Source: Sphingopyxis sp. H053 (GTDB lineage: Bacteria; Pseudomonadota; Alphaproteobacteria; Sphingomonadales; Sphingomonadaceae). From it: a DNA stretch of 64,000 nucleotides. The stretch covers positions 1 to 64,000 of the forward strand of contig NZ_LNRU01000002.1 of assembly GCF_001468225.1 (NCBI RefSeq), in the 5' to 3' direction. Below, piece by piece: positions 3,019-59,145 of the stretch; the stretch's first letter is position 1; each line of letters opens with the position of its first letter. Both the position numbers and the translations under genes were made by a program. The notes below the pieces were generated by a model that was not told the DNA's origin, did not search any database, and saw nothing but the letters and a program-made list of their open reading frames with translations.

Positions 3019-3101
3019 TCGTCACCCCGGACTTGATCCGGGGTCCCGCTTCCTTTTCTCACTCCAAAAAGCGGGATGCCGGATCAAGTCCGGCATGACG
3101 A
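3019..3101. repeat. Family B palindromic repeat, copy B1
   Basis: Begins TCGTCAccccggacttgatc and ends with the inverted arm closing in TGACGA, with a short spacer (gctt...aagc) between arms. It lies in the divergent gap between recR and fmt, so it sits upstream of both genes. The same TCGTCA/TGACGA ends recur in copies B2-B7 and in most family C copies. Confidence 0.88.
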
Positions 3102-6821: not shown

Positions 6822-6915
6822 TCGTCACCCCGGACTTGATCCGGGGTCCCGCTTGAGGTCGAAGCCTGCCGATGCATCACAAAAGCGGGATCCCGGATCA
6901 AGTCCGGGATGACGA
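6822..6915. repeat. Family B palindromic repeat, copy B2
   Basis: TCGTCAccccggacttgatc at the left and the inverse arm ending TGACGA at the right, separated by about 35 bases. It lies between the convergent SDR gene and hppA, before their shared terminator. Confidence 0.88.
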
Positions 6916-15196: not shown

Positions 15197-15290
15197 TCGT
15201 CATCCCGGACTTGATCCGGGATCCCGCTTTTTTGAGGGATCGACCGGCTCTGATATCAAGCGGGACCCCGGATCAAGTCCGGGGTGACGA
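15197..15290. repeat. Family B palindromic repeat, copy B3
   Basis: TCGTCAtcccggacttgatc to an inverse arm ending TGACGA, with a ~30-base spacer. It lies between the convergent DUF2332 and DUF1465 genes and is the only clear structure in that gap. Confidence 0.88.
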
Positions 15291-21396: not shown

Positions 21397-21473
21397 CGTC
21401 ACCCCGGACTTGATCCGGGGTCCCGCTCAGCGACGTCGAAAAGCGGGACCCCGGATCAAGTCCGGGGTGACGA
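21397..21473. repeat. Family B palindromic repeat, copy B4
   Basis: CGTCAccccggacttgatcc to an inverse arm ending TGACGA, between serS and surE, which read in the same direction. The arms enclose about 20 bases (tcagcgacgtcgaaa). Confidence 0.88.
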
Positions 21474-22263: not shown

Positions 22264-22334
22264 TCGTCATTCCCGCGAAAGCGGGAACCCAGCAGCAACG
22301 CCGGACTGGGTTCCCGCTTTCGCGGGAATGACGA
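22264..22334. repeat. Family C palindromic repeat, copy C2
   Basis: TCGTCAttcccgcgaaagcg at the left, inverse arm ending TGACGA at the right, with arms extended by gggaaccca/tgggttccc. It lies between surE and the nlpD-like gene, so it is inside a likely operon. Confidence 0.88.
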
Positions 22335-27417: not shown

Positions 27418-27494
27418 TCGTCACCCCGGACTTGATCCGGGTCCCGCTTTTCAACGTCGCTCAGCGGGACCCCGGATCAAGTCCGGGGTGACGA
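27418..27494. repeat. Family B palindromic repeat, copy B5
   Basis: TCGTCAccccggacttgatc to an inverse arm ending TGACGA, in the 370-base gap between rimO and the DUF4403 gene. The left arm is one base shorter (cgggtcccg). It is enclosed by direct copies F1 and F2. Confidence 0.88.
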
Positions 27495-33552: not shown

Positions 33553-33631
33553 TCGTCGCCCCCGCGAAGGCGGGGGCCGCCGTCGGCCTTGCGTTACCTC
33601 TCCAGCGGCCCCCGCCTTCGCGGGGGCGACG
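33553..33631. repeat. Family C palindromic repeat, copy C3
   Basis: TCGTCGcccccgcgaaggcg to the inverse arm ending GCGACG, between the monooxygenase and DUF3008 genes. The TCGTCA end is changed to TCGTCG in both arms in a compensating way. The same variant is seen cut off at the window end. Confidence 0.85.
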
Positions 33632-40810: not shown

Positions 40811-40887
40811 TCGTCATCCCAGCGAAAGCTGGGATCGCCAACGGTCAAACGGAACGATAGCGGCCCCAGCTTTCGCTGGGGCGACGA
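40811..40887. repeat. Family C palindromic repeat, copy C4
   Basis: TCGTCAtcccagcgaaagct to the inverse arm ending GCGACGA, between the convergent dehydrogenase gene and dnaN. The core uses agcgaaagct/agctttcgct instead of the usual gcgaaagc arms. Confidence 0.85.
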
Positions 40888-42730: not shown

Positions 42731-42808
42731 TCGTCATCCCGGACTTGATCCGGGATCCATGCGAGGCATCTGCGGAAGCTGGACCCCGGATCAAGTCCGG
42801 GGTGACGA
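42731..42808. repeat. Family B palindromic repeat, copy B6
   Basis: TCGTCAtcccggacttgatc to an inverse arm ending TGACGA, in the 332-base gap between the IalB-like and racemase genes. It is flanked on both sides by family F copies in direct orientation, the same layout as at 27.4 kb. Nothing else is evident in the gap. Confidence 0.88.
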
Positions 42809-43713: not shown

Positions 43714-43867
43714 CCGTCATTCCCGCGAAGGCGGGAATCCCGCTTTGACTCCGTTGGCGCTAGCAGACCGTCTTCGCGTCTTCGCGCGAAACGCTGAAAA
43801 AGCCTCAAGCAAAGGCGCGAAGAGAAGGAAGGAAAAAGCGGGATTCCCGCCTGCGCGGGAATGACGA
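43714..43867. repeat. Family C palindromic repeat with long spacer, copy C5
   Basis: CCGTCAttcccgcgaaggcg and an inverse arm ending TGACGA are separated by about 95 bases instead of the usual 15-30. The spacer contains cttcgcgtcttcgcgcgaaa and ggcgcgaagagaagg and codes for no protein. It lies between the racemase and the convergent LysR gene. Confidence 0.8.
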
Positions 43868-45254: not shown

Positions 45255-45284
45255 CCGGCGGACCCAAGTTGCAGGGCCCGTCAA

Positions 45285-45328
45285 AGCCGGGGCCATGATT
45301 CGGGCACGATCATGGTCCCGGCTTTTCT
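45285..45328 (+). terminator. Rho-independent terminator of the UrcA gene
   Basis: agccggggccatgat and atcatggtcccggct pair as a 15-bp stem (one G-T pair) around an eight-base loop, followed by TTTTCTTT. It starts 30 bases past the stop. Confidence 0.85.
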
Positions 45329-45373
45329 TTAGGGGGTGCCTGCTGTTGGAGGTGGGCAGCTATTGTTGCCTCT

Positions 45374-45770
45374 TCGTCATCCCGGGCTTGACCCGGGACC
45401 CGCCTTCATTCTTCCCAACGGCAGCGGATCGAAACCGAGATCCTCGGCCAGATCGCGCCACGTCGGGTTCATCGCGTGGATCAGTTCATATTTCCACGGC
45501 CGTAACCATCGCTTGATGCGTTTTTCGCGCAGGATTGCCGAGTCCATTGCCTCGTGGCGTTCGAACCAAACGAGCCGCTTGATTTCATAGTCCTTGGTAT
45601 AGCCTTCGAACGTCTCTTCCCGATGCTGATAGATGCGCTGGACGAGATTCGACGTGACCCCGGTGTAAAGCGTGCCGTGGGAAGAACGCGCCAGAATGTA
45701 GACGCAGGGATAGCGTTCCATCGTCGCATGAAAAGACAAGGCAGGCCCCGGGTCAAGCCCGGGGTGACGA
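45374..45770. repeat. Family B element split by a GIY-YIG gene, copy B7
   Basis: The left arm (45374-45402, TCGTCAtcccgggcttgacc) and the right arm (45742-45770, ending TGACGA) are the two inverse arms of a family B element. Instead of the usual 20-30 bases they enclose a whole GIY-YIG gene. Confidence 0.82.
45377..45721 (-). CDS. GIY-YIG nuclease-domain protein (UPF0213-like)
   Basis: 114 residues of the small YhbQ-like GIY-YIG type. The domain is shown by CVYILARSSHGTLYTGVTSNLVQRIYQHR (G/C-V-Y, LYTG, Arg) and the glutamate in REKRIKRW. Catalytic residues look complete, so DNA cleavage is possible, but family members' roles are little known. The stop TGA is formed by the left repeat end, and the last residues GPGSSPG are read from the repeat. 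An ATG at 45721 lies 20 bases inside the right arm. This unusual position suggests the gene moves with, or acts on, the repeats. Confidence 0.87.
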   Translation of the reverse strand: MERYPCVYILARSSHGTLYTGVTSNLVQRIYQHREETFEGYTKDYEIKRLVWFERHEAMDSAILREKRIKRWLRPWKYELIHAMNPTWRDLAEDLGFDPLPLGRMKAGPGSSPG

Positions 45771-45822
45771 TGGGGACTGGCTGCTTTCGTTCAACAGCCT
45801 CCGGCGCAAACTTGCCCCGCCT

Positions 45823-59061: not shown

Positions 59062-59145
59062 CCGTCATTCCCGCGAAGGCGGGAATCCCGCTTTGGGCCC
59101 ACCCGCGTCAAGAAAGCGGGATCCCCGCCTTCGCGGGGATGACGG
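59062..59145. repeat. Family C palindromic repeat, copy C6
   Basis: CCGTCAttcccgcgaaggcg to inverse arm ending TGACGG, between the VOC gene and the membrane protein gene. Both ends changed together (CCGTCA/TGACGG). Confidence 0.87.

Follow-up and report, generated by a model that had tools for sequence, protein, structure and literature searches.

What might a complete nuclease gene be doing between the two arms of a repeat that otherwise encloses a short spacer? The question is raised by an element at positions 45374..45770 of a 64,000-nucleotide stretch of the genome of Sphingopyxis sp. H053 (contig NZ_LNRU01000002.1, positions 1 to 64,000; hereafter the window), in which a small gene of the GIY-YIG nuclease family is bounded by two inverted repetitive extragenic palindromic sequences (REPs) of the CGTC type. 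The original prediction, made from the letters of the window alone, gave the nuclease a possible role in recognising or spreading these repeats, by analogy with the REP-associated tyrosine transposases (RAYTs), and the comparisons described here support it, as far as inference can. The association of gene and repeat, its specificity and their co-evolution are established by computation. The GIY-YIG nuclease is probably the dedicated enzyme of CGTC-type REPs, RAYT-like but with an unrelated catalytic domain, which would cut the repeats and mobilise them.

The element in the window

The gene lies on the minus strand at 45377..45721 and encodes 114 amino acids from its likely ATG. This start, the ATG of MERYPC..., was chosen for the analysis and is common to a sister copy (L004) in the same genome; the open reading frame 45377-45739 would yield 120 amino acids if read from the TTG at 45739. 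Two inverted 33-nt arms surround the gene and are identical at 30 of 33 bases, one downstream at 45374..45406 (plus strand, TCGTCATCCCGGGCTTGACCCGGGACCCGCCTT, with its TCGTCA tag outward) and the other upstream at 45738..45770 (minus strand, TCGTCACCCCGGGCTTGACCCGGGGCCTGCCTT). Each arm folds by itself into a 7-bp stem with a 5-nt loop, leaving the outward-facing TCGTCA tag unpaired. As had been predicted, the gene between the arms is complete, its TGA stop codon (45377-45379, minus strand) is part of the TGACGA end of the downstream arm, and its last residues are read from that arm. The whole element, 397 bp, can be described as an expanded REPIN (REP doublet forming hairpins) with the nuclease gene as its spacer. 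Eleven other REPIN-like head-out pairs in the window span 69-152 nt end to end, so the gene-bearing pair (395 nt) is exceptional, and the unusual length claimed for it holds. These eleven were chosen by eye from the list of a tagged-hairpin detector, which also contains unlike hairpin pairs in coding DNA.

When the window protein was compared with Pfam, its sole match was GIY-YIG (PF01541, 4.6e-14), and it carries the catalytic Tyr, Tyr, Arg and Glu that define the superfamily. Across 117 proteins of the genus, the Tyr of the GIY motif is present in 116 and the Tyr of the YIG motif, the Arg, the His and the Glu in all 117, and the Asn is kept in 89 of the 90 alignment rows filled at that column. 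Together with a median ratio of nonsynonymous to synonymous substitution (dN/dS) of 0.08 for the GIY-YIG genes of the genus, this shows that the nuclease residues are maintained under purifying selection. No NCBIfam family matches the protein, no match was found among phage records, and a comparison of the window with Rfam gave nothing that reaches the gathering scores. UPF0213, a group of stand-alone small GIY-YIG proteins, is the best PDB match both by sequence (E 0.17) and by Foldseek, where nothing reached E <= 0.001 (best 1.4e-3).

The Y1 HUH transposase domain that defines RAYTs is not found in the window protein. A RAYT encoded elsewhere in the genome could in principle move both the REPINs and the gene element, and RAYTs have been proposed to move their own REPs in the accessible text of Nunvar (2010). 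However, Y1_Tnp was detected in 11 of 60 Sphingopyxis genomes and not in that of H053, none of the 10 Y1 loci measured (of 12) has arms, and the accessible parts of a survey of CGTC-tagged REPs state that no tyrosine transposase gene flanked by such repeats was found (Di Nocera 2013). A RAYT acting from elsewhere is thus already a very unlikely explanation.

Enclosure by arms in the genome and the genus

The H053 genome (5.13 Mb) contains nine PF01541 matches, namely UvrC and eight small genes. All eight small genes lie between inverted arms, whereas UvrC does not; seven arm sequences are found among the eight, with L004 and L005 sharing one. Small GIY-YIG matches occur in 50 of the 60 genomes of the genus, beside a presumed UvrC (one PF01541 match per genome was assumed to be UvrC). 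From the approximately 200 small matches that remain when one assumed UvrC per genome is subtracted from 260, 117 genes were analysed, the window's own gene among them; matches on short contigs of genome G009 and others were left out, as were the weakest, unlisted ones. Matched inverted arms with a score of at least 14 are present at 112 of these 117 genes. Among 464 control windows, taken at an offset in these loci, 0 reach this score (the highest is 13), and 36 of 300 pairings of left and right flanks from different genes do. Each of the remaining five genes retains one arm of its nearest neighbour's type within 600 nt, and distant windows reach these five single-arm scores in 0, 0, 0, 0 and 2 of 233 cases. 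Arm enclosure is therefore a rule and not an accident.

The same picture emerges when the repeats are taken as the starting point. A census of 1.26 Mb of the H053 genome, using patterns based on arm types seen beforehand, gave 140 arms and 57 head-out pairs, 54 of them 60-159 bp long. Only three pairs are long (391-402 bp), and each encloses a GIY-YIG gene; a fourth GIY-YIG gene in this part of the genome (C1:492876, arranged as REPIN, gene, arm) escaped the pairing rule. It might be supposed that REPs, abundant as they are in this census, have landed by chance beside a small gene, or that the gene is a passenger among them. This is already contradicted by the control windows, both the 464 above and 284 from outside the genus described below, and by the lack of any other long stretch between head-out arms in the 1.26 Mb. 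Moreover, exact copies of the type-4 arm core in this genome are confined to the two arms of its type-4 gene, so these arms are not there through repeat abundance. The co-evolution of gene and arm described below also speaks against chance, which is left as a most improbable explanation. The original prediction had itself named homologues without arms as a sign of chance insertion. Relatives without matched arms do exist; they are few in the genus, being the five above, each with one cognate arm, and are commoner farther away.

Co-evolution of arms and genes

Arm type tracks gene clade almost one to one, showing that the gene and its flanking REP co-evolve. Protein identity and arm similarity are correlated over the 112 genes (Mantel r 0.64, 0/2000 permutations), and also when the comparison is limited to gene pairs with less than 60% identity (Mantel r 0.35, 0/2000 permutations). 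When 11 arm types, defined by single linkage at 0.75, are placed on a quick tree of the 117 proteins (without bootstrap), 11 changes are counted, with 10 the minimum possible and a mean of 55.6 after shuffling. The deepest split of the tree sets 90 genes whose arms are CGTC-like, with variant tags in some clades, apart from 27 genes, the majority of which have GTTCGT-type arms. These 27 (L010-L018, L020, L028, L041, L045, L046, L057 and others) form a second, deeply split subfamily, whose GTTCGT-tagged repeats, of the TCGAGCGAAGTCGAG and CTGAGCTTGTCGAAG types, make it a second system of the same design.

The element as a unit

Comparison of copies at unrelated places shows that the block of homology stops at or near the arms. 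Across 52 pairs of the same clade whose surroundings differ, identity is about 0.8 within the arm ends and drops to about 0.3 beyond them. In genome G023, two unrelated places hold copies of a 415-bp block that are 99.3% alike, and both ends of the block lie within 16 nt of the arms; GCGGACGT stands beside one arm of these copies (L097/L098).

Sites with and without the gene were also compared. At the orthologous site of the window element (the HxlR site), 16 of the 29 relatives read keep both neighbour genes, and the gene is present in 0 of the 16; at least six of these relatives carry ordinary REPINs there, as judged by eye. The original prediction would have taken the same gene at syntenic sites without arms for a mark of chance; what the syntenic site shows is relatives that lack the gene, some with ordinary REPINs in its place. 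In Azospirillum lipoferum 4B, the gene and its flanking REPINs come between sufB and sufC, two genes that are contiguous in the four relatives read. For Sphingobium, the element lies between fnrL and a response regulator gene in seven plasmid records and is missing from three others read. At this site, Sphingobium TomTYG64 (L301 380-580) has one palindrome of 29 nt that is CGTC-tagged at either end, as if two arms had merged into one. On pSymB of Sinorhizobium meliloti Ak57, between gltA and lpxB, a full element (L290 1439-1813) has as its neighbour a copy of 161 nt (L290 1156-1316) with both arms and the gene's end only, and in strain K101 only repeats are found between the two genes. The internally deleted copy of Ak57 represents a step towards a gene-free REPIN.

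Sites without the gene are thus seen, none of them a plain REPIN at the same base as a gene element. Base-exact empty sites were not obtained at the HxlR, sufB-sufC or fnrL sites, where intergenic divergence obscures the exact junction. In the loci L256, L258, L259, L261, L262 and L266 of relatives, the site corresponding to 45255-45822 of the window holds differing stretches, some of them perhaps single small genes, which by eye seem to be enclosed in an inverted GCGGAC...GTCCGC repeat, after which comes a GGTCG motif. This intergenic site looks like a hot spot for cargo.

Short REPINs and their number

Gene-free REPINs of type 4 were read in detail. Eighteen of the twenty, taken from three genomes (11, 8 and 1), are 105 bp long and two are one base longer; their ends are TCGTCA-like and TGACG, and their flanks are unrelated. 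In four of four type-4 gene elements, the arm cores are 362 bp apart, and an inner CCATGGCC is common to these elements and the type-4 REPIN. When one REPIN is treated as single-stranded, its fold runs from one end to the other (z -9.2). In 18 of the 20 (L308-L327), one arm resembles TCGTCATG and the other TCGTCACC, as judged by eye, a difference that is kept perhaps since perfect long palindromes are unstable.

REP number and gene presence go together. Genomes with more small GIY-YIG matches tend to have more REPs (Spearman 0.69 over the 60 genomes). For REPs of the two classes scanned, the median is 14 in the ten genomes without small matches and 174.5 in the other fifty, although three of the ten nonetheless have 91-180. 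REPs of type 3 have a median of 42 in 14 carriers of the type-3 gene and 8 in 46 others (p 1e-4), with a partial r of 0.36 given total REP load and gene number (11/2000 permutations). The 14 carriers are genomes with a match of at least 79% identity, a match with a stop codon and fragments being among them; the result holds for the 10 intact carriers only, with medians of 47.5 and 9.5 and a partial r of 0.33 (14/2000). A wider set of 20, enlarged by six matches of 61-67% identity for one of which the arms were read, gave 42 versus 6.5 and a partial r of 0.54 (0/5000), and is not relied on. For type 4, the medians are 27.5 in 8 carriers and 1 in 52 others (p 1e-4), with a partial r of 0.42 (0/5000 permutations). 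Crossed tests are weaker, with p 0.04 for type-4 REPs by type-3 gene and p 0.13 for type-3 REPs by type-4 gene. In all these statistics, related genomes are non-independent points.

The sites and counts together bear on homing, the main rival reading, in which the nuclease cuts gene-free REPINs, the gene is copied in by repair based on the arms, and the REPINs themselves are spread by something else. GIY-YIG is a classic homing-endonuclease domain, and the shared outer arms and inner CCATGGCC of the gene-bearing and gene-free type-4 forms are as homing would have them. However, a gene-free REPIN exactly where a gene element sits was seen in none of the relatives, and REPIN copy number tracks the cognate gene, which homing by itself would leave unexplained; the homing reading is considered unlikely. 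GIY-YIG homing endonucleases of the I-TevI type also differ from proteins of the window type, which have about 110 amino acids with little beyond the domain and are bounded by REP arms.

Among the eleven ordinary REPINs of the window, the commonest (3020-3100, 6823-6914, 15198-15289, 21397-21472, 27419-27493 and 42732-42807, the last, at 76 bp, serving as the head-out example for comparison) have CCCGGACTTGATCCGGG-like arms. The others lie at 22265-22333, 33554-33631, 40812-40886, 43715-43866 and 59063-59144. For these CCCGGACTTGATCCGGG REPINs, the alternatives are loss of their gene from the H053 genome and service by the related clade of L004 and L005.

Occurrence beyond the genus

At E 0.001, the profile has matches in 76 of the 190 class genomes and in 157 of the 299 phylum genomes; the weakest matches are likely other GIY-YIG families. 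From these matches 56 loci were taken, and 36 have arms with a score of at least 14. Loci L119 and L154 in this set repeat genes of the 117, and of its 213 controls (99th percentile 14) one window reached 33, making it the weaker set. A further 80 named loci, reduced to 76 by removing four at contig edges (L175 and L093 are probably one gene), gave such arms at 48 and in 0 of 284 controls. Armed loci range from Sphingomonas, Brevundimonas, Methylopila and Massilia through a Chloroflexi bin and a Zixibacteria bin. In annotated records, counted without controls, arms are present in 7 of 12. The tagged-hairpin detector, which is less sensitive than arm matching, found tagged hairpins on both sides in 53 of the 117, 34 of the 56 and 19 of the 76 loci, with 0/72, 2/105 and 2/143 in the respective controls.

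The Neisseria gonorrhoeae homologue is found among dRS3-type repeats, and its nearest arms have their tags inward, meaning that the gene stands between two REPINs. By eye, plasmid copies of Planktothrix and Spirosoma lie among TGTCAT-tagged palindromes, the Photobacterium copy is flanked by CGTC repeats on a single side, and in a pair of near-identical Rhizobium plasmids there is at most one CCTC-tagged palindrome, on one side. On plasmid p1 of Planktothrix agardhii (L293), the GIY-YIG gene sits amid TGTCATTCTGAG palindromes between an MmeI-type restriction gene and the DISARM gene drmA.

A probable dedicated enzyme for CGTC-type REPs

In the favoured reading, the gene makes a single element with the pair of inverted CGTC-type REPs that are its arms. 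The protein may recognise its cognate arm as a hairpin or cruciform and nick near the TCGTCA tag, and such a cut could let short REPINs, made of two arms without the gene, be copied into intergenic DNA; the gene-bearing element would be copied likewise, but more rarely. A stronger version gives a widespread class of bacterial elements only one transposition enzyme, a GIY-YIG nuclease with about 110 residues, each clade of which would read its own hairpin; CGTC palindromes, including Neisseria dRS3 and the repeats of many alphaproteobacteria, would be its miniature derivatives. This version is favoured on balance, with less assurance than the dedicated role itself. The hairpins might also invite host upkeep, the nuclease resolving or pruning REP hairpins and cruciforms, protecting replication and travelling with the repeats that it polices; such a role is considered improbable.

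A number of observations weigh against a dedicated mobilising enzyme. Beyond the genus, arms of score 14 are lacking at 20 of the 56 class and phylum loci, 28 of the 76 named loci and 5 of the 12 annotated records. Surroundings are alike in 188 of 309 same-clade pairs, which indicates that the elements are mostly inherited in place. REP-rich genomes without the cognate gene occur for type 4 (G048 with 61 copies, G043 with 46, G012 with 32) and for type 3 (G040 with 73, G002 with 57, G005 with 47); ten non-carriers of the type-4 gene hold 9-61 copies, and 8 of the 20 type-4 REPINs come from G053, a genome without that gene. The gene clade of the CCCGGACTTGATCCGGG arms (L100, L105, L113) is likewise absent from the H053 genome. 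It is assumed that in REP-rich non-carriers the gene was lost after the repeats had spread. Lastly, at the twenty type-4 REPINs, which the test covered, no target-site duplication above shuffled sequences was found, nor with it the direct target repeats of insertion sequences.

Relation to known systems

The closest parallel is with RAYT (TnpA-REP) systems, their GTAG REPs and REPINs (REPtrons). As described in the accessible parts of the literature on them, these systems share a gene between two inverted REPs, gene-REP co-evolution, gene presence that tracks cognate REP number, and short gene-free REPINs (Nunvar 2010; Bertels and Rainey 2011). Here, flanking by two inverted REPs is seen at the 112 genus genes and is less frequent outside the genus, and cognate REP abundance follows the gene for types 3 and 4, with exceptions. 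In contrast to RAYT systems, the enzyme is a GIY-YIG nuclease instead of a Y1 HUH transposase, the arms have CGTC or related tags instead of GTAG, and up to about 11 small genes occur per genome, in the genus mostly inside the REPIN itself. SLX1 and ANKLE1, which in the excerpts available cut branched DNA, have the same GIY-YIG fold and are eukaryotic repair enzymes, unlike the window nuclease. They are not known to have a tie to repeats.

The repeats themselves belong to a described group. The window arms and REPINs, like the type-4 REPINs, have the CGTC tag, short stem-loop and head-out doublets, or head-to-head order, that accessible sections of the 2013 survey give for CGTC-tagged REPs, among which it counts Neisseria dRS3 and two Rickettsia RPE families (Di Nocera 2013, PMC3733652). 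In those sections, CGTC repeats are reported from every alphaproteobacterial order and are said to 'apparently lack a dedicated transposase', whereas here a nuclease gene is their constant companion; the survey ends by asking what mobilises them (PMC3733652). Among the matches listed from the open-access literature, no paper ties GIY-YIG genes to REPs, and none in that literature mentions both 'GIY-YIG' and 'repetitive extragenic palindromic'; preprints and closed journals lay outside this scope, and a prior report is possible. RepRanger (2025) contains no words beginning with nuclease, transposase or RAYT, and the accessible text of a Moraxella paper (PMC9465073) lists GIY-YIG and RAYT as separate genes of one clade, with no link drawn there.

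If the GIY-YIG protein mobilises CGTC repeats, the question on which the survey ends would be reduced to an assay of one enzyme, and the dozens of gene-repeat pairs would constitute a ready-made recognition code. It would also follow that a partnership like that of RAYT and REPIN arose twice, with unrelated enzymes. Should this nuclease prove to be the sole transposition enzyme of the class, there would be a form of DNA mobility that relies on GIY-YIG chemistry and parallels the RAYT-REPIN system independently of it.
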